Shown: piece by piece, positions 918-20,200 of the stretch
How the letters are laid out: each line of letters starts with the position of its first letter
How positions within the stretch are numbered: the first letter of the stretch is position 1
IMG/VR virus record: IMGVR_UViG_3300020172_005677
Coordinates: 1-21,471 of that record
Length of the DNA: 21,471 bases
Strand: one strand, 5' to 3'
Source: a virus
Program-made: the position numbers and the translations under genes
The notes under the pieces: generated by a model
The model's database searches: none
Told to the model about the DNA's origin: nothing
Seen by the model: only the letters and a program-made list of their open reading frames with translations

Positions 918-1226
918 ATGAGCATCAGAGGATTAGCAAGATTGGGAGACAAAACAGAAGGTACCTGTGACATACACGGTGATCAGTCTGGAGAAATCAT
1001 TTCATCGTCACAGAATGTGATAGGCAATCAACAGAGAGGATATGCCAGACTGGGAGATGAAGTGCGTGCTGATTGTGGACACACCAGCAAGATAGTCACT
1101 GCTTCTGCCAAAGTGTTGATCAACGGCAAGGCACAGCTGGTGGCAAGATTGGGAGATCAAGTGAATGGAGACAATTATGAGGCAAAAATTGTTTCTGTGT
1201 CCAGCAAAATTTTCATAGGAGGATAG
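918..1226 (+). CDS. PAAR-repeat spike-tip protein (T4 gp5.4-like role)
   Basis: This 102-residue protein has three copies of an ARLGD-type PAAR repeat, starting near residues 7, 43 and 76. The repeats are joined by Gly-rich beta segments and end in IFIGG. PAAR proteins fold into small cones that cap the trimeric spike of phage tails and type VI secretion systems and bind zinc near the tip. Candidate ligands here are Cys17/His20 in repeat one and Cys53/His55 in repeat two; repeat three has neither Cys nor His. The length is normal for a stand-alone PAAR protein and no C-terminal effector extension is present. It sits 15 bp after the helical protein and 15 bp before the gp25-like gene. No Shine-Dalgarno sequence is seen in its AT-rich leader (903-917). 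Confidence 0.9.
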   Translation: MSIRGLARLGDKTEGTCDIHGDQSGEIISSSQNVIGNQQRGYARLGDEVRADCGHTSKIVTASAKVLINGKAQLVARLGDQVNGDNYEAKIVSVSSKIFIGG

Positions 1227-1241
1227 CACATAAATATTCAT

Positions 1242-1685
1242 ATGAGCAGCAAAGAAAAAAAATTATACAAAGACATCACGGTGAAATCAAAGATCATCAG
1301 TGCTGCCCTGGGTCCTAGATCATACAGAGGTATCAGCACAGTGAATCCTGATGCCAACAGTTTCAATCTGTATGACATAGCACTGATCAAACAGGATCTG
1401 ATCAATCATTTACACATTCGTCAGGGAGAAAAATTAGAAAATCCTGAATTTGGTACCATCATATGGGACGCACTGTTTGAACCATTAACAGAAAGCATGA
1501 AAACAGCAATAATTGACAATGTCACCCAAATCATCAACTATGACCCCAGAGTTCAGGTCAATAACGTGGTTGTGGAGTCCTATGAAAGCGGAATCCAGAT
1601 TGAATGTGCGTTAACTTATCTGACCTACAACATATCTGAAAGTTTGCGTTTAAAATTCGATGAAAATCTTGGATTAATCAACTAG
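1242..1685 (+). CDS. 25: Baseplate wedge protein, gp25/TssE family
   Basis: This 147-residue protein belongs to the gp25-like family (T4 gp25 is 132 residues). The family sits in the inner wedge, contacts gp6, and helps start sheath assembly at the baseplate; TssE is its type VI secretion counterpart. The diagnostic part runs from about residue 42 to 112: a helix with DIALIKQDLINHLHIRQGE, the turn NPEFGTIIWDALFEP, then a helix leading to YDPRV at 100-104. That DPR matches the position of the family's EPR core motif, with Asp for Glu. A beta segment with VVVES follows. The first 40 residues are a basic extension. The AGGAGG at 1217-1222 lies inside the PAAR stop region, about 19 nt from the ATG, farther than usual. 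The gene is followed by a 58-bp gap and gp6. Confidence 0.92.
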   Translation: MSSKEKKLYKDITVKSKIISAALGPRSYRGISTVNPDANSFNLYDIALIKQDLINHLHIRQGEKLENPEFGTIIWDALFEPLTESMKTAIIDNVTQIINYDPRVQVNNVVVESYESGIQIECALTYLTYNISESLRLKFDENLGLIN

Positions 1686-1743: not shown

Positions 1744-4700
1744 ATGTCATCCACAGATAGACTCAATAGGTTAATTTTGGCAGAGGATTGGAAAAAAATC
1801 TATCAGAGCTTTAGAAACGCTGATTTTCAAAGTTATGACTTTGACAACCTACGCAGATCCATGATCAACTATCTGCGTCAAAACTACCCCGAAGACTTCA
1901 ACGATTATTTAGAAAGCAGCGAGTACTTGGCACTGATTGACCTTATCGCTTTCTTGGGCCAAAACATTGCTTTTAGAATTGACTTAAATGCCAGAGAAAA
2001 TTTCATAGAACTGGCAGAACGCAGAGAATCAGTGCTGCGTCTTGCAAGACTGTTGAGCTACAACGCCAAGCGTAATCAGTGTGCCAATGGCTTGTTAAAA
2101 ATAGATTCCATATCTACCACCGAAGAAATAATTGACAGCAACAACATAAATCTCAGCAATCAAACCATCATATGGAATGATCCCAGCAACGAGGATTGGT
2201 ATGAACAATTTGTAAAAATTATGAATACGCTGTTGCCGGTCAACACAAAAATAGGTCGACCCAATAAAAAAGACACAGTGAACAATTTGCCAGTCGAGCT
2301 GTATCAGTGTAATTCAGCTTTACAACAGGTTCCGATATTTGGATTTAACAAAAGTATAGATGGAAGAAATCTAACTTTCGAAATAGTCAGCGTGGATATA
2401 AATGATGGAGAACTACAAGAATTAGCACCGTTGCCCACAAACAAACTAACTTTCATCTACAAAGAAGATGGCAAGGGCAGTGCCAGCAGCAACACTGGAT
2501 TTTTTTTCCATTTTAGACAAGGCACTCTGCAACAAGGCACATTCAACGTGGATCTATCAGTGCCGAATCAGATAGTGTCAATAGATGCTGTGAACATCAA
2601 CCAGACAGACGTCTGGCTCTATGCATTGGACAATGATCAAAACGAAACTGAATTGTGGACCAAAGTGAGTGCTACCGAAGGCAACAATGTGATCTACAAC
2701 AGCACTGCGAAATCTATCAGAAATATCTACAGCGTGATCACCAAGACCGAAGACAGAATCAATCTTCAATTTGCTGACGGCACATTTGGAAACGTGCCCA
2801 AAGGTGCGTTTAAAATTTATTACAGAACCAGCGACAATACATCATTTAAAATTGTGCCCGCGGACATGTCCAACATAACAATCACTGTGCCTTATATCAG
2901 TGTGACAGGCAAAAGTGAAGTGCTCACGGTGAATATGTCACTGCAGTACACAGTGGACAATGCCAGCAGCAATGAAACTACTGAGTCTATCAAAACCAAC
3001 GCTCCTTCTATTTTCTACACACAGAACAGAATGATCACAGGAGAGGATTACAATGTAGCTCCATTGGCTGTGAATCAAGAAATAATAAAAGTGAAAGCAG
3101 TGAACAGGATCAGCAGCGGGGTATCAAGATATTTAGATTTATTAGATGCCACAGGCAAATACAGCAGCACCAATCTGTATGGCAATGATGGAGTAATTTA
3201 CAGAGAAATATTAACGGATACTATAAATTTCAGTTATGTGAGTCGAACTGACATCGAGGGAGTAATCAACAACAACATCGAACCTATCTTAGCTGAACCA
3301 AAATTATTTAATTTTTATCTGAATAATTTTAACAAGATATTGGTCACCGACGTGGTGGCGACCTGGAATCAATCAACCAGATTCACCAACATAAGCACAG
3401 GCCGTCTGACCGATGAAAATAGTAATGTAATGCCTGTGGCTGGATTTACTGCCAGTGTGTTAAAAAATTTGCAAATTGGAGCAAAATTAAAATTTACGCC
3501 ACCTGTAGGACAATTTTTTACTAATGATAACAAATTAACCAGCAGTGTCAATGAAGCTGGAGACAACAGCACTGTGCGATGGGCTACGGTCGCTAGAATA
3601 ATCGATGACGGCACAGTGATACAAAACGATGACTCAGGACCTATAATTTTCAATGATGTGATTCCTACTGGAGCAATACTGACTCAAATAATCCCAAAAT
3701 TCACTACAAATCTATCGCAAGATATCAAATTACGCATGTTGGATGAAATATTTGCCAATAATATTTTTGGATTGAGATATGACAGCACAGTGCAAGACTG
3801 GGAAATCATTGGTGAAAACGATCTCAATCTTTATGCAGATTTCAGCATAGGCAAAACAGGTGATATCAGCAATCAGCAGTTAGATGCCAGTTGGTTGTTG
3901 TTGTTTACCACAGACACAGAATTATACACAGTGACCTATAGGGGCATACGATACGTGTTTGAAAGTGACAAAGAAATACGTTTTTATTATGAAAGCACAG
4001 ACAAAAATTTTAATAACACAACAGGGAGAATCATTAAAGACAAGATTTCCGTGTTAAATATCAACACTCAACCTGCGCCATCGACCAGTGCGCTTAAACA
4101 AAATATTGATTGGCAAGTGGTTGCAGAATACAGAGATGCTGCCGGCTACGTGGACAGCAAAAAAATTGAGATTACGTTTTTTGATTCGGATGATGACGGG
4201 ATAATGGATCAACCAGACTCGTTTGATCTTCTTATACCTCAAAGCACTGATACCACCATAGATTATAAAAAATATATCTATCAGAAAAAAATCACTAGTG
4301 CAGATGGTGTGGAAGATTATCGATATGTCAATGCCTTGGCTGAAAACATAGTGCCAAAGATAAGCGTGGCTGCAATAGGATCACTGCATCAGTACACTGA
4401 AACAATCACATTTTATATTGTGCCTTTGAATGTCTTTAAAACATTGAATGTTTCCACAATGACTTTAGAAAATAACACAAATTACAAAGCATTTGTTGGT
4501 AGAAGTGATTTGAAATTTCAATATCTGCACAGTGCCAATCTAACCAATAGAATTGATCCCAGCATCACCAACATAATAGACATATACATGCTGACCAGAA
4601 CATATGATAATAATTTTAGATCATATCTAGACGGAAATATAAACAGCAAGCCTTTGACAATGAGTTCTGATGAAATGTATCTAAATTTTGGAAAAGACAT

Positions 4701-5223
4701 AAATCTTATCAAATCAATCAGCGATGAAGTAATTTATCACCCAGTCAAATACAAGATTTTATTCGGAGATAAAGCAGACACTAAATTTCAGGCAACCTTC
4801 AAGGTGGTAAAAAATGCCAACGAAGTGGTAAACAACGATGACATAAAAGTGCGAGTCATACAGGCTATCAATCAATATTTTGCCCTTGAGAATTGGGATT
4901 TTGGTGATGTGTTTTATTTTTCAGAACTTAGTGCCTATGTAATGAATCAACTGGCTCCTGACATTGTTATTTTCGTGATTGTACCTGCGCAGAGCACTCA
5001 AGCCTTTGGTAGTTTATTTGAAATTAAATCTGAAAGCGACGAAATTTTTATAAGTGGTGCAACAGTGAACGACGTTGAAATAATTGATGCAGTCACAGCC
5101 TCAAGACTTAAAGCAAGTGGCACTGTGGTAACATCTACATCCACTCTAAACGTGGGCGTTACCAGTGCTGCTGCAGGCAGTATTTCATCAAGCAGTGGAG
5201 ACGGTAGTTACTCTTATCCTTAA
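1744..5223 (+). CDS. 6: Baseplate wedge protein gp6 (enlarged)
   Basis: This 1159-residue protein is a homologue of T4 gp6, which forms the continuous ring of the inner baseplate and dimerises around gp25 and gp7 in the wedge. The N-terminal block at about residues 36-115 is characteristic: LRQNYPEDFNDYLESSEYL, then IAFLGQNIAFRIDLNAREN, then a helix ending LLSYNAKRNQ. The middle (about 120-900) is mostly beta-strand, without recognisable catalytic motifs. The C-terminal block at about 1030-1110 is typical of phage gp6: FALENWDFGDVFYFSELSAY followed by IVIFVIVPAQS and LFEIKSESDEIF. The last 30 residues are a Ser/Gly-rich tail. T4 gp6 has 660 residues, so this protein has several hundred extra, chiefly in the middle. 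The start follows a clear Shine-Dalgarno sequence. The giant gene begins 15 bp after its stop. Confidence 0.92.
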   Translation: MSSTDRLNRLILAEDWKKIYQSFRNADFQSYDFDNLRRSMINYLRQNYPEDFNDYLESSEYLALIDLIAFLGQNIAFRIDLNARENFIELAERRESVLRLARLLSYNAKRNQCANGLLKIDSISTTEEIIDSNNINLSNQTIIWNDPSNEDWYEQFVKIMNTLLPVNTKIGRPNKKDTVNNLPVELYQCNSALQQVPIFGFNKSIDGRNLTFEIVSVDINDGELQELAPLPTNKLTFIYKEDGKGSASSNTGFFFHFRQGTLQQGTFNVDLSVPNQIVSIDAVNINQTDVWLYALDNDQNETELWTKVSATEGNNVIYNSTAKSIRNIYSVITKTEDRINLQFADGTFGNVPKGAFKIYYRTSDNTSFKIVPADMSNITITVPYISVTGKSEVLTVNMSLQYTVDNASSNETTESIKTNAPSIFYTQNRMITGEDYNVAPLAVNQEIIKVKAVNRISSGVSRYLDLLDATGKYSSTNLYGNDGVIYREILTDTINFSYVSRTDIEGVINNNIEPILAEPKLFNFYLNNFNKILVTDVVATWNQSTRFTNISTGRLTDENSNVMPVAGFTASVLKNLQIGAKLKFTPPVGQFFTNDNKLTSSVNEAGDNSTVRWATVARIIDDGTVIQNDDSGPIIFNDVIPTGAILTQIIPKFTTNLSQDIKLRMLDEIFANNIFGLRYDSTVQDWEIIGENDLNLYADFSIGKTGDISNQQLDASWLLLFTTDTELYTVTYRGIRYVFESDKEIRFYYESTDKNFNNTTGRIIKDKISVLNINTQPAPSTSALKQNIDWQVVAEYRDAAGYVDSKKIEITFFDSDDDGIMDQPDSFDLLIPQSTDTTIDYKKYIYQKKITSADGVEDYRYVNALAENIVPKISVAAIGSLHQYTETITFYIVPLNVFKTLNVSTMTLENNTNYKAFVGRSDLKFQYLHSANLTNRIDPSITNIIDIYMLTRTYDNNFRSYLDGNINSKPLTMSSDEMYLNFGKDINLIKSISDEVIYHPVKYKILFGDKADTKFQATFKVVKNANEVVNNDDIKVRVIQAINQYFALENWDFGDVFYFSELSAYVMNQLAPDIVIFVIVPAQSTQAFGSLFEIKSESDEIFISGATVNDVEIIDAVTASRLKASGTVVTSTSTLNVGVTSAAAGSISSSSGDGSYSYP

Positions 5224-5238
5224 AATAAAAACAAAGTT

Positions 5239-8200
5239 ATGGCATACGATAACGATCAAAACGAACCAAATCTTCCTTCAGGTAATGAAACCAAACAGGA
5301 AAGAAATGCAGCGGACTTACTGCCACGATATTTCCGCACAGCCGTAAATAAAAAATTTTTATACAGCACAGTAGATCAATTGTTGTCTCCAGGCACGGTG
5401 GAAAAAATCAGTGCCTTTTACGGCAGGAAAACAGCAAAATCATTCAGTGCGGAAGACAACTACATTAATGAAATAAGTGCTGATAGACAGAATTATCAGT
5501 TTGAGCCCGTGGTGGTCAGAAAGGATAATCTAGGAAACATAACTTTCACTAAAGATTATATTGACTATATTAATCAATTGAAAATATTAGGAGGTAACAC
5601 TTCAAATCACAGCACACTCAATTCACAAGAATATTACAGTTGGAATTCCAACATTGATTGGGATAAATTTGTAAATTTTAGAGAATATTATTGGTTGCCG
5701 GAAGGCCCTGAGATCATCTCGATTACAGGTCAGCAGCAGCAATTGAACAGTCAATACACAGTGAAGCTGGCAGACAATCTGGACAACTATGCCTATGTGC
5801 TGACTCCGGATGGATTGACACAAAATCCAACCATTACTTTGTACAGAGGAGTTACATATCAGTTCAGCATTGATACTCCTGGTATGCCTTTCACCATTAA
5901 GACTGCTAGAACTTTAGATTTAGACAACATCTACGATGATGGCGTGGCATCTATTCCTGATGTGGACAAACAATTTGTGGAAAAAGGAACAGTGACATTC
6001 ACAGTAAATTATAACACTCCAGACACTTTGTATTATGTTTCGCAAAACGATATCAATGCTTATGGATTAATAAAAATTGCCGACATTGAAGAAAACACAA
6101 CAATAGATGTGGAAAAAGAAATTATTGGCAAGAAGACATACACACTGCAGAATGGCACTAAATTGTCCAATGGGATGAAAATTAATTTCAAAGGAGTTGT
6201 CACTCCTGTAAAATACGCCACAGATGAATGGTATGTGGAGGGAGTGGGATCTGCAATAGTGCTTATTAAAGAAAGAGATCTGCTATCTCCCAATGATCTA
6301 GCAGATGAAACAATTGAAGCTTTTGATGCAGAAAATTTCGACGAGACTGCTTTTGAAATCGATAACCCAGACAGAGAATTGAAAGATTACATAGTAATCA
6401 AAAAAAATTCGCCTGATTTAAATCCTTGGACTAGGTCCAACAAGTGGGTGCACAAATCAGTGTTGCAAGCCTCAGCAATCAACAACAACAATGTATTGGA
6501 CAGCAATGAGATAAACAGGGCCAAGCGACCAATCATCGAATTTGATGCAGGTTTAAAATTATTTAATTTTGGAACCAAAGCCAAACAATATGTGGATGTG
6601 GTAGACACATTTACCAAAGACGTGTTTTCCAATATAGAAGGAGCCACAGGATATAATATTGATGGAGTAAATCTGGTCCAAGACATGAGAATATTAGTGA
6701 CTGCTGACACAGACACATTGGTGAAGAACAGAATATACCAAGTAAACATCATAAACTTTGGTGGAGATGGTGACCCAACCAACAAACAAATTTCATTGCT
6801 TGACACAGACGATGGTGCTCCACAGACAGGCGACGTGGTATTGGTTGCCAGTGGCACAGTGAACCAAGGTAGGATGTATCACTACGATGGCAACAGTTGG
6901 AAAATTGCTCAGTCCAAAACAAAAATTAATGAAAGTCCATTGTTTGACTTGTGTGACAGTGAAGGCACGAGTTATAGCGATCCTGTAAAATATTTAGGCA
7001 ACAATTTTTTAGGTAACAAAATTTTTAATTATAGGGAAGGCGTTGGCACTGCTGATGTTGAACTAGGATTCCCACTGGCATATAGAAATTTCAACAATGT
7101 TGGAGATATACTTTTTGATTTTCCACTAGTCACTGAATCGTTCACATATCAATCTGGTGAAGATGTGTTATCTATCAACACTGATGTGGGATATTTAAAA
7201 AAATACAGCGATCGCACCACTTTTACCAGTGTGTCCGGCTGGACCAAGGCACACAGTGTCAGCAAACAAATGGTGGTCAGACAATACACTGCTGCTGAAC
7301 AAGTGAATGACTTTGCTGTGGATGTTTACAAAAACAGTGCACTGTTGAATGATTTAATTCTAAAAGTTTACGTGGATAATAAATTACTGTTGGATTCCAC
7401 GTCAGCTCAGCTGAATACTTTCCCTTTGAACAAAAATTATTTCGTAACCAATGCAGCATCTGAAACCTATGTGTTTTCAGGAGATGCTATAGGAAATAAC
7501 ATTACTATCAATGCCACAGTGGGTGACACTCTTACATTTAATGTCAGCGCAAACGGGCATCCGTTTATTTTAAAAAGTGTGGCGGGCGCGGGACTCAGCA
7601 ACGCTTTGAGCACAGGAGTAACAAACAACGGCTCGCAGACTGGCACAGTGACCTGGAACACCACAGGCTATGCATCGGGAATCTACTACTACAACTGTCA
7701 ATACCACACATCCATGCAAGGGCAAATTGTGCTCACGGCTGCTGGTATCAATAGGAGCGAATATCAAACAGTGGACATTAATAAAGTATTGCACGTGAGA
7801 TTGAACAATGATCTGAGTGCAGGACAGTCTATTATCTTGAAAAGCCACAGTGCTGCTGCCAAGTCAGATCAAGGACATTATGAAATTCCAATCAATCTTG
7901 AAAGTAATCCTTTCAATGAAAAACTAGAAAATTTCACATTTGGAGAAGTTTCCAATCACGTGGAAAGCATCGTGGCACAATTGGACAATTTCATAGGCGA
8001 TAATCCAGGATCTAACAATCTAAGAGACATAGGCAACTTGTCTACTTTTGGAACAAAATTTGTGCAGCACAGCGGTCCATTAAACATTGCATTATACCAC
8101 CTTCTAAACAAAGAAATAAATGTAATCAAAGCTGTGAGATATGCACAAAAAGAATACGACAAATTTAAAAAAACTTTTTTACAAACTGCTGAAACAAGCA

Positions 8201-11200
8201 ACTTTGACGGCACAGTTAGAGAGCATGTTGATAAAATACTAAAAGAAATAAATTTAGAAAAAAATAATAACATGCCGTTCTATTTCAGCGACATGTTTCC
8301 TTATGGAGCTGCCAAAAAAAATGTGTTCACAGTGTTGGACGACAGCAACAAATATTTTGCCCTAAGTAAACCTTTTTCAATGTCAGTGCTGAGCAATAAA
8401 GCAGTGCAAGTGTATGTCAACGACACACAGCTGATGCACGGAATAGATTATGAATTTACTGCAGAAAATTTTTGCTTAATAAACAAAACATTGTCGGCAG
8501 GCGATCAAGTGCTTGTGATAGAATATGAATCTACAGATGGAAATTATGTTCCGCCAACTCCTACAAAATTAGGATTGTATCCCAGATTCAAACCAATGAA
8601 ATATCTGGATGACACTTATATTACTCCAAAAAATGTTATACAAGGACATGATGGCAGCATCATGGTTGCTTATGATGATTACAGAGATGATCTGTTGATC
8701 GAATTAGAAATGCGTATCTATAACAATATTAAGATTGAATATGACAAGTATTGCAGAAACATTCATGACTTTGTGCCAAGCAAAGATCGCAGCACAGGTA
8801 TCGACGTGTCAAGCATTGACAGCAGCATGGCAGCTGATTTTATCAACTGGAACAACACGTTGGGCACGTTAGATTTCACTGCCAATGATTTTTTCAACAT
8901 TGCAGAAACTTTCACATATAATCACAATAAAATGCTCGCATTTGATGATACACGCCTACCAGGATTTTGGCGTGCTGTGTACAAGCAGGCCTATGACACC
9001 GACAGACCACACACACATCCATGGGAGATGCTTGGATTCAGTGAGCAGCCCACTTGGTGGACCACAGTGTATGGACCAGCACCCTACACCAGTGACAACT
9101 TAATTCTTTGGGAAGATCTTCAGAATGGTGTGATTAGGGAACCAGGTAAGAAATTATTGTATGACGACAAATACAAACGCACAAGTTTATTGAATCATCT
9201 GCCTGTGGACGAAGATGGTAAACTACTCAGTCCTTATGACAGCGGATATGCTGACAATTTTGTGTACACACAATCCTTGGGTGCTTACAAATTTGGCGAT
9301 CAAGCGCCCACAGAAACTGCCTGGAGACGCAGTTCACACTATCCATTTTCATTATTGAAAGCCATGCTGCTGAACAGACCAGCACACACCATGAGTGTGT
9401 ATTTTGATGCATCTAGAATCAAAAAAGATATTACCAATCAGATCATTTACACAGAAACAAATAAGAGATTAACTTTGCAGGATCTTGTGTTTCCCAACAG
9501 TCGTGTAGATGAGGAATACGTGCACACTTCAGGCTTGATCAACTATATCAGCAACTATATTAAAACAGATGTGCTGAAAAATTATAAAAATTATCAGAGC
9601 GATGTTAAAAATTTAACTCAAAATCTAGGGATAAGAGTGAAAGGATTCACGCAGAAAGAAAAATTTAAACTATTGTTGGACAGCAGATCTCCGTTGAATC
9701 AGAACAATGTGTTTGTGCCTGATGAAAATTACACAATACATCTTAATACCAGTACACCCATTGAAGTATTGGTGTACAGCGGTGTGATGGTGGAAAAATT
9801 AGCGTCAGGATATATGATAAGAGGATATGATCAGTTTAATCCTGTGTTTCAATACTATCCGCCAATAACCACTGCTCAGGATACTGTAAAAAAAGTTGGA
9901 GGCATCAGCAGATCATTTATAAAATTCAATGCCAACACAATCTTCACAGCTGGTCAAATAGTATTTGAAAGAAACAATTATTACAGAGTCTTGAGAGACT
10001 ACAGGAGCGGAGCGCAATTTGATAGCACCAAACACACGCTGCTGACGGAGTTACCCATAGATGGTGGTGCTGTGGCTACGTTCAGCAATCAATATGCAAA
10101 CAAAATTGCCACATTAGACTATGGCACAGTTTTGGCAGACGTGCAATCAGTTGTGAATTTTTTATTGGGTTACAACAGATATCTATTGTCGAAAGGTTTC
10201 ATCTTTAACAATTACAACAAAGAGATCAATACTGTAGAAAACTGGAGACTGAGTGCCCAAGAATTTATGTTCTGGTCCACACAGAACTGGAGGGAAGGTG
10301 CTGTGCTATCATTGAGTCCAGCTGCACAAAAATTAGAACTGCAAACCACATACTCTGTGGCTGATAATATTTTTGATAATTTTTATGATTTTACAGTGCT
10401 CAAAACAGATGGATCCAAACTGCCTCGAAACAAATTAAATGTTTTAAGACAAAACAATTATTTTTGTTTGACCACAAAAAACACCACAGATGGAATATAT
10501 TTTGTAAAAATTCCCCTAGTGCAAAAAGAACATATGGTCCTAGTGGACAATGTTACAGTGTTCAATGACGTGATTTACGACCTAGCTCCTGGATACAGAC
10601 AAGATAGAATAAAAGTGATAGGATATGTGGCTAGCAACTGGACTGGTGGTCTAAACGTGCCAGGATTTATATTTGATGAGGTAATAATAAAAGAGTGGAA
10701 TGCTTTCACAGATTTCAACATGAGCGATGTGGTAAAATACAAACAATTTTTCTACAGTGCTAATGAATTTGTGGCAGGCAGCAGTACGTTTGCATTTGAC
10801 AAATGGACTAAACTGGCGGAAAAACCAGTCAGCAGTCTTAAACCCAACTTTGAATACAAAACTAATCAGTTCGGTGATTTCTATGATTTGGACACAGACA
10901 ATTTTGATGTGGAGCAACAAAAGTTAGCTCAGCATTTGATAGGTTATCAAAAAAGACAATATCTACAAAATATCATCAATGATGATGTGGCACAATACAA
11001 ATTCTATCAAGGATTCCTACAGGACAAAGGCACCAAGAATGCGTTGGAAAAATTATTTAATTCACTGGCCAGTGCAAACAAAGACAGCATAGAGTTCCAT
11101 GAGGAATGGGCCATCAGAACAGGTCAGTTTGGGGCAGTCAACGCATTTGATGAAGTTGAATACTTGTTGGATGAAAAACAATTTAGACTTAACCCACAAC

Positions 11201-14200
11201 CAATTGAGTTGACAGATGTGGAAACTTTTGAAACCACTAATTTCGTTTATAAAATTAAATCAGGTGATGCCTATCTAACTCCGGAAAATTATGATCACAA
11301 ACCTTTCCCCAGCAAATACGTATCCGAAGGCTATGTAAGAACTGCAGGTTTTGTGGATCCTAATGATGTGCATTACACTTTGAAAAATTATGATGATATT
11401 CTTCAAGTAAATGCTGCAACATTAACCTACAATCAATATGTATGGATAGCTTTTGAAAAACAAAGTTGGAATGTGTACAAACACAAATTGATCACTGTAG
11501 ACCCTCTTGATTATAGCACTACAATCAAAAACTCAGTGACGTCAGTGGCAGAAAGCGGCGACGACGTGCTTGTGACAGTGGCACAATATAACGCCAACAT
11601 TCAAGCAAATCAAATAATTTCTGTTAGGGTCAATCAGATCACTCAGTTGTTAAAGGTTAAGAATGTGTCGGGCAACATCATAACTTGTTTTAAAAACGGC
11701 ACCACCAATGAAACAATTGACAGCAGCACTGGCACACTGGGCATCTTTATCGGCGCAAAACTGGCAGATCTGAGTGAGGTAAATGCTCATTTGATCGATA
11801 ATGGAAAGATGTCAGGAGAATTGTTATGGGTGGAAAATGACAACAATGATCGTTGGGTAACTCTTAAAAATATTCCTTCCTGGCAGAAACATCAAGAAAT
11901 TCTTAATCCTGCTGATGACTCCACTGCAAGTTTTGGCTTGGCTATGGCTGCCAACAGCGACAACACAGTGTTGGCAGTGGCCAACGTAAACAATTCCGTT
12001 TATATCTATAGCAGAGATTCCAGCGCAAATACTTTCACATTGCGTCAGGAAATCAGTTCTCCTTCAGCTCTCTGGAGCAATGCAGATGATGATTTCGGAG
12101 CCAGTCTAGCACTCAGTGCCGATGGAAGATATCTCATAGTCGGTGCGCCCAAGGCTAGTCAAGTGAAAAGCAATTACCAAGGTAACTTTGATCCAGATTT
12201 CAACTATGTCAATGGTGACATTGTGAGACACAATGAGCAATTATGGCAGGTGTTAAAACCAATTTTGCCTGCTGATCTTGTGAATATTCCAGGAGATTCA
12301 GCGGGTGTGAATTTCACAACCTTTGATAGCGCTGCTTTCGTATATGAGACTTTGTACAACAACCTTGAAAATAGTTATCCCGACCTTAAAATATTATTGC
12401 GAGGTGATTACGTACATACGCTTAATGACACATTGGCCACTCCTATAGTGACTGATCATATACTAGTGAGAGCTTCATTAGAACAATACAATGGCACAGA
12501 CGTGGGCGACAAATTACAATTGTTGTGGAATCTGCTCAATACCAGTTATCCATCGGGCACAGGCAATGTGCCATTTGACGGGAATATTACCGGCATAGAC
12601 AAATCTTTCATTGATGGACAGCATGTGATACAACACAAAGTTGATGACATCCTTAATGTAGCGATTACTACCACTGACGTGAATGTTAATGATGTATTGG
12701 AGTCGGATCAGGCATCGGGCACAGTGTGTTACAAAAGAAAGATTGGTCTGCGCACAATTATCTACCTAAAGAATATCAATGGTCAATTTGCAGATTCAGG
12801 ATCATTGCTGAAAAATTCTTTGCCAGTGGGCAATTATACAAGAACAGTGACTGATGATTATGCTAATCTAGGCGGATGGTGGTACATCAATCTGGGATTC
12901 GATGTTGGAAACACACAATCAAACACTTTCAAAAGTGATTCAAAGAAATCTCTCATAGTGCAGGACATAATAAAAGCGGCAGATACGAGAGCAGTGAAAC
13001 CATTCATCAACATCCTGGACAGTCAAGCACAGCAAGCAGTGTCCTTGCCCACAGCTCCAACTGCAGCTTCAGAGATAGCTATTTTAAGTTACCGCAAGTC
13101 TGCAGAACTTTTGGGGTCTGGTGGACAGTATTACGAACAAGATGGCACTCTGGGTGCCGCAACCAAAGGCGTGCAAAACAGCAAGCTATATGTGGTGAGA
13201 GTGCCTAAAACTCTCAGTGATCAATATAATCTGCCATATGTCAGCAACAGTGCACAGATCAGCATGTGGGTCAACAGCATATACACCGGAAACTCTTTAG
13301 CAAGATTTGAAATAGACAATCTTTCAGACGATTTGACCTTTGACACAGTAAACAGCAAGGACAACAACGACTCAACTGTGGCACGTAAAGAAATATATGA
13401 TATATGGAATGGACTATTGTATGTGACTGCAAATCAGTCTGCTGGCAACTTTTGGGTACCTTCAGAGGGTGATACCATAAGAGCAAGAACGGGCAGCTTT
13501 CTAACTGGTTTCGTGACAGGCACTGCCACAGTGGCTTATGTGAAGACTATTTCTCCTGCTGGTGGCGCAACAGTATTACAAATCTATATTAAAAATAAAT
13601 CAGGTTCGTTCACACCCGCACAAACAATAGACATTATTTCTTCTGTGAATCTAAATATTCCTAGCAGTGCCAGTCATAGAGATATAGGACCATTAAACAG
13701 CGCTGAATTAGAAAATGCCATCACAGGCAGCTTGTTTGTGTTTGAAGCGAAAGATGCTTTAGGAGATTCAACAAACACTAAAATACTCAATGTGAAGACA
13801 CAGTTCCAAGATGTAGATTACATCACAAACAGCTTTGTGATCGATGCTGCTGGAGCCTCGGTGATGAATAATTCTGCCGTGATTAACATAGAAAAATCCA
13901 TCATTACCAATGCCACGCCTGGGTCAACTGACACACTTACATATGCAGTGTCTATTGTCCAGCCAGGAAATCAATTTCAGATTGGCAACACATTCACTGT
14001 TGATGGCTCTTTATTAGGCAGCGAATCAGGAACGAATGACTGCACTTTTGCAGTGTTGGCCACCAAGACACAATTCTCCAACATCACTCAGAGTGACATC
14101 AAAACATCGGATCAAATCAGCCAAGGAGCAGGAGTGAATGCAAGATTTAATATTGAGCGACAAGGATCACTGTATGTGATACAGAGTGTGGAAGATTCAG

Positions 14201-17200
14201 GTGTGGGCTATCAGAAAGATGACATAATCACTATATTGGGCAACAGACTTGGTGGAAATACTATCACCAATGATTTAACTTTCAAACTCTTGGGCATAAG
14301 AAAAATTTATGCCAATATATCTGCCAGTTCCAACTCAGTCGCAGGCATTGGGGCCTTATTCAACGTAATCAGAGAAGGCAGCACATACAGCATAGAAATA
14401 AGAAATTCAGGTTCTGGATATGTTGTAGGTGATCAGTTGACGTTCTTAGGCAGCAGTCTAGAAGGAACAGCTCCAGCCAACAATTGCACAGGCACAGTGA
14501 GCACAGTGAGCGCAGGTGGTCGAATACTCACAGTGTCCGCTACAGGCACAGCAGTACAGAGCGGAGTGGGTGGTGTGCCACAGAACACTGCACTGTTAGA
14601 ATTTGCGCCAAAAGTAGTCACATTTAACTTACTCACTCTTGTGCCAGGCACAAATTACACCAACGGCGGCATTTACGAAACAACCACTACAGGATTGGGT
14701 GTGGGTCTGCAGGTTCAGGTATTCAGTACAGGCGGAGTAATTGATTCAGTTGTGATTATCAGAGCTGGGATAGGTTACGCAGCAGGAGATACAGTCACCA
14801 TTTTAAATATATTCGGTGGCAGTCCTGCCAGCATCAACATCAGCACTGTGGACTCGATTGGAGATATTGCACAGGTTGGAGGGCTGCATGCTGTGCATAA
14901 CATCAACGGCTTGGTGAACTTAGATCACACCAAAGTGAATGGATTAGAGTATTGGCTATGGGATGAAGACAAGCAGGATGGAATCTTAAGACAGGCCAAC
15001 GCACCTTTCCGAAAGAATAGGGATTACAAACAGGTATTCAACATACCTGTGGGCAGTGGTCCTGCATCTGCCTACACCAACGAAGGTGCATTTGTGGTGT
15101 ATGAAAAAACTGCAGCAGGTTCATATGATACAGTTGGGGCATTTACCACTCCAGATCAAAAAAACAATGCAAGGTTGGGCAGTAAAATAAAGATCAGCCA
15201 ATCTGGCAACAGTACTGTAGCATTTGTGAGCACGGCAAGCTCAACTGCATTGGATGACAAAATATATTTTATACAGCATGATGCCAGCAAAAAATGGCAT
15301 TTGTCCATCGATCCTAATTATACCGGTGTGTTTGATACGACGAGCACATATTTTCTAGGTGATCTTGCGCAGCAAGGTGGTAAAATTTATCAAAGCAAAA
15401 CTAATCAAGCAGCTGGTGCTTTCAATATTAATTTTTGGACTGAATTGCCAGAAGGTGTGGATTATCTAGGCTATGTGCCTCCATCTCCGTCAGATCCTTT
15501 GTTGGACGTCAGCAATCTTGATTTGACTAATCTTTCCAACTTTTCAGAAAATTTTGATATCAGCAAATCAGGTGGAGTACTGGCCATTTCATTGACTTAT
15601 TCATCTCCTGCTAGACAGAGAGTTGCGGTTTATTCTCTGTATGACGGCAGATATCGTTACAGACAGATCATAGCACCACCAAGTGACTTGATTGATCTTT
15701 CGGCGGAATATGCCACTTCTGTGGCTGTGAGTGATGATGGAAGATTCATAGCAGTAGGCAGCCCTACTTTTGAAGGAGCTCTGACTGACTCCGGAGCGGT
15801 GTACGTGTATAAATTAATCCCCACAGGCACCAATCCCCAGTATGAACTGAGCCAGACACTGACCAGTCCAAAACCTCAGACCAACGAGCGCTTTGGAAAG
15901 AAATTAGATTTTGATGGCAACACTTTGGTGATCAGCAGTGTCAACAGGATTGATTCTACCACTGAATATCCGTCGGGATCTGTGTATATTTTCGAAAATT
16001 ACAATGATTTTTATATTTTTGCTGACACTTTCGAATATGCCAATGAAATCTTCACAGATTTTGGCAAGGATATATTAATTTCTGACAATCACGTGTACGT
16101 GGCTCTGCCAGATTTTGATAATGGCAATGCTATTAATGGTTTGGTTGTGGACTTTAAAAGATATAATGCTGCCAGCTGGACCACACACAAATATCCATTA
16201 GAACCTGTGAACGTAGAAAAAATCAAAAGCATTTTCCTATACAATGTGCGCTCTAACTTTATTTCACAGAATTTAGATTATATCGATCCTATACAAGGAA
16301 AAATAGCTGGCACAGCCGAACAGGAGTTATTTTACAAAACATACTATGATCCAGCAATATACAACACAGGCACTTCGACTGTGAGCGTGGATGTAAAAAA
16401 TATTTGGGGAGAACTTCAAGTGGGCAGATTATGGTGGGATCTAAGCACTGTGAAATTTTATGATCCTTATCAGGTCAACATCATATTCCAAACCAATTAT
16501 TGGAACAAAATATATCCAGGATCTTCAGTGGATGTGTATGAATGGGTAGAATCTGAATATCTGCCAGAACAATGGAATCAACTCAGTCAGACCAAGGAAG
16601 GTATCGCCAAAGGCATCAGTGGCAACACAAAATATGACAACACTGTGTATGTCAGCCAACAGACTTATGATTTCATATCAGATAGTTTCAACAATAGATA
16701 TTACTACTGGGTAAAAAATAAAAAAACCTTGCCTAATTATGAATTTAGAAAACTGTCTGCCTTTGATGTGGCTAGATTGATTGAAGATCCCAAAAAACAA
16801 TTGTATAGATTTGTGGCCATGCTGTCAGAGAATAAGTTTTCTTTATTCAACTGCAACAATATATTGGTCAACAAAGATGTTGCAATTAATTTTAAATTAT
16901 GGACTATAGACAATCAGAACATCAATAGTCACAATCAGTATCAATTGGTCAGCGAAGGTATCAGCTACAGTTTTCCTAAAAAAGAGATTGAGGCTGTTTG
17001 GTTCAACAGTCTGATTGGGGTTGACGAACAATTTAGACCTGTACCAGATCCTAATCTTAGTCCCAAATATAGATATGGCACACTGAGAAGACCAAGACAG
17101 AGCTGGTTCGTTAACAAAACTGAAGCATTCAAACAAGTGATTGAGCGAATAAATTCGGTCATGATTAAATATCAAATTGCGGAAGATCGTGATTTAACAG

Positions 17201-20200
17201 ATCTGTCTACCTTGCAAAATTTTCCATCCACGGTGACTAGATTATATGATCAAGTCAAAGACACACTGCTAGAATTACAATTTATTAATGCCACTAGAAT
17301 AAAACAAGCTCAGTTGCAATTGGTTATCAGCAACGGAAGTATAATATCTGTGAACATAATCCAACAAGGATATGGATATCTTGTGGTGCCCACATACAAA
17401 ATTATAGATTCCACTGGCACAGGTGCAGAAATCACTCTAACTATAAATGCAGTAGGACAGGTTATCACAGCCACAGTGGATAAGCAAGGACAGAATTATA
17501 GTGATGCCGCAAGTATCACTGTGCGAAAATACAGCGTGCTGGTGAAGAACGATACAACTGTGAACAATAAATGGTCAATACATAATTATGATCCGAAAGA
17601 ACTGTGGCAGAGAGCACAGTCTCAAACATTTGATGTGAATCTATATTGGTCCTATGTGGATTGGTATGCAGAAGGCTACAATAAATTTACTGAAATAAAT
17701 CATTTGGTTCCTGCCAGTTATGAGCTACAATTGTTCGATATCTCCATCGGTGACGTGGTAAAAATTGAAAATGTTGGCATAGGTGGATGGCTATTACTGA
17801 AAAAAATTGATGATCAAGTCAATGTTGACTACACAATTAATTACGAAACTATTGGCAGACAAAATGGTACCATACAATTTAACAGCAAATTGTATGACAA
17901 CACCACTGCCAATCTCGGTTACAATAGCAATAGCTTTGATTTAACTTTGTATGACAGTCAACCTTTGATAGAATCGCGCATCATATTAGAAACCGTGCGT
18001 GATAAAATTTTTATTGATGAGCTGGCTGTGGAATACAATAAACTATTTTTTGCCAGTATGAAATATGTGTTCAACGAGCAATTATTTGTGGATTGGGCTT
18101 TCAAAACCAGTTTTGTCACAGCCACTCACAATGTGGGCGAACTATCACAGAAGACAGTGTTTAAAAATGATAATCTTTCCAACTATCAAGATTTTGTGAA
18201 CGAAGCCAAACCCTACAAGACTAAAGTGAGAGAATATATCAGTTCATACGAATCCAATGAGCAATCACAATCTCTTACTACAGATTTTGATTTACCACCC
18301 ACTTACAGTGTTGCAACCAACAGCATTGAAGCTAGTGTGGCACAAGTGAACAATAATCAGATTACAAACTCTAATCTAACCAGCGATTATCCCAATAAAC
18401 ATTGGAGCGACAATGTAGGATTTAAAATTATATCCATAAATTTAGCAGATGCCGGACTGGGATATCTGGGCGTGCCTAACATCACAATCACCGGTGGTGG
18501 TGGCAGTGGTGCTGAGGCGCAGGCCTATGTGTCCAACGGAAAAATCACAAGAATAAAAATTATCAAATCTGGATCTGGGTATCTATCAGCTCCTACAGTG
18601 ATTATATCTGGCAGCATCGGCAACACAGGAAGAACAGCCAAAGCAACCTGCGTTTTAGGCGGGTCATTGATCAAAACCACACACATGAGAGTAAAATTTG
18701 ACAGAACCACCAGCAAATTATTGATACTAAATCTTAGCAAGACGGAAACCTTCAGCGGTACAGGTTCTAAATTTAACTTTGATCTCAAATGGCCTATAAA
18801 TCTCAAATCTAACAAGATCATGGTGACTGTGAATCAGAAAAGAGCATTGTTCAGCGAATATGTGTACGCTAATACACAGGACACTGCTACCACATACACA
18901 TCTGCACCAGTGCAAACCACCGGTGCGTCCAGCAATGGTCAAACTGCAACATTAACTTTTGCTGCACAGATAACTCCTGCTTTCATCAAGGGTCAAACTG
19001 TTAAAGTATCGGGAATAACTCCTTTGGGCTACAATGGAATACACATTGTGACTGACAGTACACTGAATTCTGTCAGTTTCAATCTGACCTCGGCATCCCC
19101 TCTAGGATCGCAAACAGTGGCAGGCAATATAGTAGTCACAAATCAATTAACAAACTCTTATGTGAGATACAAAGGTGAAGTTACATTCAATGTCCCACCC
19201 GCATTGGGCAGCACAATTGTTATTCAGTATGAAATTGATGCCAATATTTTGCAGACGCAAGATCGTGTGAATCTGTTGTATGAACCAACCACAGGCATGT
19301 TGGGCAAGGATTTAGCACAACTGATCGATGGCATTGACTATGGTGGAGTTGAAATACGTAGTTTTGATTTTCCTACTTTAGGAGGTTATGGCAGTGGTCC
19401 ATTCATGATAGGGCTTTTTGATTCATATGATACCAGCTATGAAGATGAAGTATTCACTCTGGATCAAAGCACAAATAAATTTCAACTTTCCAAACCTTTG
19501 GCAGCTGGAGTCAGTTACAACGTGTATAGAAGAGGAGCTCGCACACACACAGCAGATGGCAGCAGCAAGATTTACTCTTATGCCAGCTTCAATTATCCTG
19601 GATTGGGAGGACCAGTGTCAAACAATGTGTTGGTTCGAGTGGATGGTATCATCATCGACAAAAATTTATATGCACTGAATTCAAACAATCAAACTATCGA
19701 ATTTGTCACAGCTCCTTTGGCTGGCACAACCGTGATAATATCTGACAGCAATCCGGTGAGAATAGATGATCCTCTATATGGATTTGTGCCTTTGACTGTC
19801 ACAGCGGCTGATGACAGCACCAATCAATTCACTGTGAACAGCACCAGTACTTTAGCAGCCAATATGCCAATAATTTTTAACGGCACAGTGTTTGGAGGTA
19901 TAGTAAACACTGCCAACAACCCAACCATCTATTTTATCAAAGATATCATTGGACCTACTCAATTCACAATCAGTGCCACAGCAGGAGGATCAATTTTTGG
20001 AGGAGTTCTAACTGACACAGGCAGCATGACTCTGCGCAGACCTTTGGCTAATCCATACGCTAGAATGCAGACCATAATAGGTGATGGATCCACCACAGAG
20101 GTGCAGATCGACGAACAATCGATTAACCCGGAAACCAATGACATTATAGTGATACGTAAAAGCACCAGCGATGGCAGTTTTCTACCAGATCCAGACGAGT

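Follow-up and report, generated by a model that had tools for sequence, protein, structure and literature searches.

Do phages carry blue copper centres on their virions? The question is raised by a giant gene in the viral record IMGVR_UViG_3300020172_005677, which is 21,471 bases in full and which was analysed whole (hereafter, the window). To our knowledge, redox-active metal centres have no established place in phage virions. A preliminary description of this DNA had placed a cupredoxin with a full type-1 copper ligand set inside a phage structural protein, a reading that is now well supported: the evidence below makes it likely that a true cupredoxin domain, its type-1 ligand set intact, was inserted into a giant baseplate protein that already carried a ligandless cupredoxin. 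The fold and the site are already known, and the novelty is where this cupredoxin sits. The literature searched (subscription journals, preprints and InterPro excluded) contained no description of a virion-borne blue-copper site in phages, and an annotation may exist. Two papers, on Borgs (PMC9605863) and on a Roseobacter genome (PMC3141670), were set aside, their titles and the opening of their abstracts being judged unrelated to phage cupredoxins.

The inserted domain and its predicted copper site

The giant gene lies at the end of the contig, with the following genes upstream of it:

918..1226, plus strand: PAAR-like protein, perhaps the spike tip (PHROG 281, E 1.1e-7)
1242..1685, plus strand: gp25-like baseplate wedge subunit (PHROG 261 'baseplate wedge subunit', E 6.4e-18)
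1744..5223, plus strand: gp6-like baseplate wedge subunit, adjoining the giant gene (PHROG 10646, E 2.5e-301)
5239..21471, plus strand: giant virion structural protein of at least 5411 amino acids, running off the contig end (PHROG 10938)

The giant frame (5239-21471, plus strand) contains 5411 stop-free codons up to the contig end, and its product belongs to PHROG 10938, 'virion structural protein', which was matched in three scanned parts of the protein with E-values of 8.1e-120 (residues 18-1254), 1.5e-122 and 3.1e-81. The gp25-like gene and the gp6-like gene lie directly upstream, forming a T4-like baseplate wedge region. The gp6-like protein has its nearest relatives, approximately 34-38% identical, in jumbo phages, among them Sinorhizobium phage Phosso, Agrobacterium phage Atu_ph07, Salmonella phage Munch and Cronobacter phage GAP32.

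Within the giant gene, the domain and its candidate ligands are positioned as follows:

7390..7746, plus strand: cupredoxin insert, linkers included, about residues 718-836 (BLAST junctions; absent from 79 orthologs)
7441..7767, plus strand: stretch modelled as a cupredoxin fold, residues 735-843 (AlphaFold2 pLDDT 92.0, pTM 0.83)
7558..7560, plus strand: His774, predicted first copper ligand (frame reading and conservation in homologues)
7696..7698, plus strand: Cys820, predicted copper ligand (same basis)
7705..7707, plus strand: His823, predicted copper ligand (same basis)
7714..7716, plus strand: Met826, predicted axial ligand (same basis)

The preliminary description had put the domain at 7462-7740, and while its location stands, the limits are better drawn slightly wider, at 7390-7746. 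The four ligand residues it named (774, 820, 823 and 826) were confirmed in one open frame, where His, Cys, His and Met follow in the order of a type-1 copper site with a Cys-to-Met loop of known length. The spacing C-x2-H-x2-M, which had been called amicyanin-like, is that of amicyanin, and the motif is present once in the giant protein. From the composition of the giant frame (11 Cys, 55 His and 40 Met), approximately 0.0008 occurrences would be expected, although this figure concerns a motif that was picked after being seen.

A cupredoxin-like strand pattern had also been proposed, together with an AlphaFold check. The resulting model of residues 735-843 contains nine strands at a pLDDT of 92.0, and its fold matches rusticyanin and an azurin carrying the amicyanin loop. 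With giant-protein residues numbered as 734 plus the model residue, H40 precedes a strand at model residues 42-45, and the loop with C86, H89 and M92 is flanked by strands 80-86 and 93-99, so that in the model the order of strands around H40, C86, H89 and M92 is the order of a type-1 site. The evidence that the four ligands would cluster in space consists of this strand order and the structural matches.

These matches extend over most of the domain and identify its predicted structure as a cupredoxin fold. Structural re-alignment of the inserted-domain model gave Z-scores of 10.5 for a nitrite reductase cupredoxin domain, 9.1 for rusticyanin (1rcy; rmsd of 2.0 Å over 88 of 109 residues), 8.2 for auracyanin A and 7.7 for azurin with an amicyanin-type loop; the row 2fta is by its title an azurin whose loop was replaced by CTPHPFM. 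The 50 rows listed comprised copper proteins, multicopper oxidases, one uncharacterised Cupredoxin_1 protein and coagulation factors V/VIII (three rows), with rusticyanin and auracyanin ahead among the free blue copper proteins. Foldseek ranked AcoP first (E 1.2e-4, TM-score 0.51) and amicyanin second, with E-values of 1e-4 to 1e-3 and modest TM-scores (0.35-0.62 in the 50 rows listed). One of its 13 rows at E<=0.001 was an Ig domain, and more Ig domains followed lower down. Rusticyanin, AcoP and auracyanin, which are among the closest folds, share the type-1 ligand order His, Cys, His, Met; they carry electrons as free or membrane-anchored proteins and have a longer loop between Cys and Met, whereas the inserted domain sits inside a giant virion protein. 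Among predicted viral structures (BFVD), the best matches were cyanophage tail and S8-peptidase proteins, with 39 rows at E<=0.001. The model of 7441-7767 also matched BFVD 'beta-sandwich proteins' of pithovirus- and marseillevirus-like giant viruses (best E 5.5e-6).

Judged by its own sequence alone, the inserted domain is a borderline cupredoxin. It is not filed under Pfam PF00127 (Copper-bind) because its score of 13.5 bits (E 0.1) falls below the curated cut-off of 21.2. The best single-sequence match in the PDB (phmmer) was weak, to amicyanin of Paracoccus (E 0.038), which has the same C-x2-H-x2-M spacing but shares little sequence, and whose partner, methylamine dehydrogenase (from the title of 1mda), belongs to a setting absent here. 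A family profile (A4), built from 71 of 73 non-redundant four-ligand copies from viral contigs plus the window copy, matched 30 PDB sequences at E<=0.1 (best 7e-4), each of them a plastocyanin, amicyanin, auracyanin, azurin, pseudoazurin, rusticyanin or copper nitrite reductase and nothing else, although this similarity is partly the motif itself, since the rows of A4 were chosen for having four ligands. Scanned singly (E<=0.01), 19 of the 72 members matched Copper-bind, the window copy not among them, and 10 of 72 matched Cupredoxin_1; 10 of 72 also matched the plant domain model At5g54830, and a few matched unrelated families. The structural evidence for the fold, taken from the predicted model, leans less on the ligand motif than does the profile evidence.

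Ligand conservation and distribution of the family

Two observations went beyond the preliminary description, namely a second cupredoxin copy in the giant protein and a wide family of related domains. The family allowed ligand conservation to be assessed with a profile whose four ligand columns had been blanked, searched against all frames of the collected loci. This masked search returned 416 stretches, of which 351 remained after removal of four from the window's duplicate loci and of those not spanning all four positions, and a redundancy cut to <70% identity left 112 copies. All four ligands were in register in 91 of these, and one further ligand-bearing copy (L148) had its Met one place further on. 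The remaining 20 had neither the Cys nor the second His; 17 of them belong to giant-protein orthologs, and the others are L124, L164 and the older copy in the window. Agreement between Cys and the second His was thus seen in 112 of 112 copies (both present in 92, both absent in 20, mixed in none), and in 89 of 89 once the scan with a ligand-containing pattern was left out.

Several of the searches bear on how such counts are to be read. The A3 search pattern contains Cys, His and Met, and its 82 of 82 complete copies are uninformative on conservation. Other scan patterns also held Cys, and a separate count was therefore made of copies lying outside the match that had fetched their locus. Among loci L103-L260 there were 30 full copies of this kind, 16 of them at <80% identity; of these independent 16, 14 were complete, one had the shifted Met and one was ligandless, so that Cys and both His were present in 15. 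The ligand-free pattern GVTNNG[SAT]Q, applied to L103-L180, gave complete copies in 13 of 14 cases. The invariant ligand columns of alignments A1 and A4 are partly or wholly circular because of how their copies were chosen, A1 having been built without L010, which is ligandless, and without a few further copies, and A4 from four-ligand copies only. The type-1 ligands are nonetheless conserved in homologues. The preliminary description had asked whether Cys, His and Met vary freely, and they do not; Cys and the second His are retained or lost jointly.

This joint behaviour bears on the reading that there is no metal site at all and that four residues happen to coincide in an Ig-like beta sandwich. 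While Ig-domain entries among the Foldseek matches and a Pfam score under the cut-off would fit such a coincidence, the concordance of Cys and the second His in every one of the 112 copies and the fact that copper proteins head both structural lists make it highly improbable.

The domain was found by tblastn in 56 of 50,697 phage records, at 66 places. Thirty-seven of these records are Synechococcus phages, 15 Prochlorococcus phages, three other marine viruses and one an Actinomycetia phage, such that cyanophages or marine viruses account for 55 of the 56. Isolates with the domain include Synechococcus phages S-CAM4 and Bellamy and Prochlorococcus phage P-SSM2. Isolate stretches were examined from 12 of the 56 records, and the ligands were complete in 13 of the 13 full copies in these 12 stretches. 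Scans of viral contigs yielded 8, at least 80 and at least 80 loci. In phage proteins the domain may be C-terminal, near the N-terminus or mid-protein, sometimes in two or three copies per protein, with many of the phage open reading frames being cut by contig ends. When 13 of the phage proteins were compared with PHROGs, most matched PHROG 677 (baseplate wedge tail-fibre connector) or PHROG 9158, and further families in this set were tail-fibre and baseplate wedge families. The last ~100 positions of these two cyanophage families match the inserted domain (E 1.5e-14 for PHROG 677 and 6.7e-22 for PHROG 9158), and copper is not mentioned in the PHROGs description of either. There, the domain is often the terminal one of a protein of 400-800 amino acids, whereas here it is inserted into a protein of more than 5400. 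In three loci a subtilisin-like (S8) protease is joined to a downstream cupredoxin-like domain (L106:485-4018 and L117:1243-3315, by profile; L013:3312-5318, by the depositor's annotation).

The scan of bacterial and archaeal genomes covered 80 of 114 loci, 73 of which are Bacteroidota by title. Bacteroidota proteins carrying the ligand-bearing domain include L264, L274 and others of L261-L340. Their domain is 36-50% identical to the inserted domain, and all 88 of 88 full copies have the complete ligand set, Cys and the second His having been part of one of the two search patterns; unlike the phage proteins, these are chromosomal and not virion proteins. At the bacterial loci the domain often ends proteins of several hundred residues, many of which have a lipobox-like start (by eye), and among seven bacterial proteins scanned, one carried Lipoprotein_15 repeats and one CHRD domains, in both cases ahead of the ligand-bearing domain. 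The family is thus modular, occurring in phage tail and baseplate proteins (among isolates, mostly of cyanophages) and in surface-type proteins of Bacteroidota, and exchange of the domain between bacterial surfaces and phage tails is possible.

The insertion and the older ligandless copy

With residues 1-720 of the giant protein as query, at least 591 stretches were confirmed, the best 80 of which, at 46-73% identity, served as orthologs. Because L081 ends before the insertion site, 79 of the 80 bear on the insertion, and the insert was found in 0 of these 79 (59 distinct stretches, among the best 80 of at least 591). The ortholog L034 reads across the site without interruption as VYVDNKLLDSNEYQTVSINNILYVQL, where the giant protein of the window has VYVDNKLLLD, then the insert, then SEYQTVDINKVLHVRL. 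The junction was read by eye and by BLAST, since automatic alignment misplaces the far side. In L346-L350 and L358 two BLAST pieces meet at one point, indicating an insert of ~119-120 residues. Among 16 loci fetched from the far side, 6 of them on contigs outside the 80, none contained the insert. Twenty of the viral records behind these loci were searched whole, and in all 20 the giant frame (2824-5345 amino acids, some cut) contains the older copy. Two of them, G008 and G011, also encode another family member in a separate, shorter frame, the one in G011 matching PHROG 677.

A model built from the window and 40 orthologs (A7) had a mean pLDDT of 65.1. The insert (model residues 574-689), which lacks alignment depth there, fell below 50 nearly throughout, and the strands on either side of it (giant residues 707-712 and 842-847) belong to blocks with a mean pLDDT of 76-84. 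From these flanking strands, the insert is predicted to lie between neighbouring strands of a beta domain. At the insert, a search for flanking repeats that might betray transposition found only short, chance-like ones.

The copy already present in the giant protein is located as follows:

5788..6081, plus strand: older ligandless cupredoxin-like domain, about residues 184-281 (profile, hhalign and structural match)

It matches the insert with an E-value of 9.4e-7 and the family profile with 4.8e-19 (hhalign 99.6%, E 1.2e-23), and has Met216, Ser268, Asp271 and Ala274 at the ligand positions. By profile, the older copy is present in 80 of 80 orthologs (at their residues ~164-345, in some split in two), and the same profile search found no second cupredoxin-like match in any of the 80. 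Cys, the second His or Met occurred at the ligand positions in 0 of 51 scored copies (51 loci), and the first His is retained in 8 of the 51; at the other 29 loci the stretch falls short of all ligand positions or, in one case, was not found by the masked profile. The former ligand loop reads Asn-Asp-Ile, which is invariant in 14 aligned copies. In the 40-ortholog model, this phage's older copy lies in a block with a pLDDT of 68-90 and matches a nitrite reductase cupredoxin with a Z-score of 11.0 and rusticyanin entries with Z-scores of 10.0 and 9.4, such that it is still predicted to be a cupredoxin. Compared with PDB sequences, the profile of the older copy gave a single row (E 0.64), which is not meaningful, and the fold is accordingly one seen in the model.

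The persistence of a ligandless copy bears on the view that copper, or another soft metal, only stiffens an exposed Ig-like decoration module and has no redox or signalling role. The module does turn up at the ends and in the interior of many different phage proteins, as a decoration might. However, the ligandless copy is kept in 80 of 80 orthologs and is without ligands in 51 of 51 scored, this phage's own still being predicted as a cupredoxin, and L164 and L124 have lost their ligands as well. Apo-cupredoxins moreover stay folded, and one entry of the Foldseek list, 2pcy, is by title an apoplastocyanin. Since ligandless copies persist, metal is not needed to keep the domain, yet elsewhere the site stays complete. 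We therefore regard mere stiffening as rather unlikely, and the earlier suggestion that copper serves stability loses ground in view of the same ligandless orthologous copies.

The relationship of the insert to other copies was assessed with a quick tree of 77 copies and 89 columns, the ligand columns being left out, in which 47 of 74 branches were open. The older copies form one group (support 99, 12 rows), and the insert falls in another (97) with phage and bacterial copies. The tree contains at least three changes between ligand-bearing and ligandless states, or two if only strong branches are counted. An origin of the insert by duplication of the giant protein's own ligandless copy is not favoured by this tree, which clusters the insert with copies from other phages and from bacteria (SH-aLRT 97), away from the older ones (99). 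With 89 columns, most forks are weak. The preliminary suggestion of a captured host fold is borne out insofar as the domain was inserted (it is missing from all 79 orthologs that reach the site), the donor being perhaps a host or perhaps another phage.

Next to the insert in the tree stand a protease fusion (L106) and a decayed copy (L164). The latter is a cupredoxin-like copy in a repeat-rich phage protein (L164:2689-6285) that has lost His, Cys and His and retains Met, a separate decay. Since this neighbour of the insert lost three of its four ligands, the copper site is dispensable. The decay of this neighbour would fit a reading of the insert as inherited baggage, acquired from another phage or a bacterium, functionless here and not yet decayed. 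That the insertion occurs on this contig only, among those examined, would also suit this history, as would the insert's GC content of 0.453 (compared to 0.39 and 0.349 in the flanks). On the other hand, the insert is <=58% identical to 71 aligned relatives and retains all of its ligands, for which reasons it is not obviously fresh, although the donor line may be unsampled. Overall, we consider it unlikely that the domain is baggage.

Possible roles of the inserted domain and further features of the giant protein

In the explanation we prefer, a module of the family was inserted between two neighbouring strands of a beta domain in the giant baseplate protein. The inserted domain presumably binds copper and is probably exposed on the virion near the baseplate, and its copper pole could then form a docking or redox-active surface, as in free cupredoxins. 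That the domain acts as a copper-bearing host-contact module is a tentative proposal, to which we give somewhat less than even weight. The argument for copper binding starts from the older copy, which persists without ligands and is still predicted to be a cupredoxin, so that ligands are not needed to keep the fold. Because the fold lasts without copper in the giant protein, an intact site is argued to be kept for copper chemistry rather than for folding. The joint retention of the ligands would be explained most simply by a metal-specific use, and a lone Cys in an extracellular particle would presumably otherwise be a liability. Since the insertion occurs on this contig alone among those examined, a benefit to this phage lacks support from recurrence.

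A broader reading would extend this role to many phages, marine ones above all, each carrying a working blue-copper centre on the tail or baseplate for use in host contact. The site might then exchange electrons with the host surface or allow copper-dependent docking, and adsorption or tail triggering might be set by redox state or copper. The giant protein may show both outcomes, the old copy having turned structural after copper loss and the inserted copy having kept an intact site. We think it improbable that the generalisation holds in this full form.

The nearest printed idea encountered is iron in phage tail fibres, with putative iron-binding HxH motifs reported in the tail fibre of Alteromonas phage R22Y (PMC11705849). 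The two cases are alike in proposing a metal in a marine phage tail and differ in that the R22Y fibre would use iron and HxH motifs, whereas here a cupredoxin bears a predicted copper site (PMC11705849). By analogy, virion copper might act as a Trojan horse, letting a host copper-uptake receptor recognise the tail. The iron version proposed for marine phage tail fibres (PMC11705849) gives this idea a precedent, and the cyanophage or marine origin of 55 of the 56 matching phage records suits it. Against it, this phage has neither a known host nor a known copper receptor, and a buried type-1 site, which binds its copper tightly, suits bait less than an open chelate would. Copper as bait is in our view distinctly unlikely.

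If the inserted domain does bind copper, a chemical factor open to experiment would enter into how phages adsorb in the copper-poor ocean, and phages would join the possible carriers of marine copper. The paired copies in one protein, with and without ligands, provide a built-in control for the effect of copper. Even without a function, one domain is seen to be common to phage tails and bacterial surface-type proteins.

Two further stretches of the giant gene were noted. Repeats of the type G-x-Y-x-x-G-D/N-x-x-T occur at window positions ~13900-14550, outside the best-scoring PHROG 10938 stretches listed, and the part of the giant protein encoded at 18322-18741 resembles PHROG 460, 'head closure Hc2' (E 1.4e-18), a likeness that perhaps reflects a shared beta module rather than head closure.
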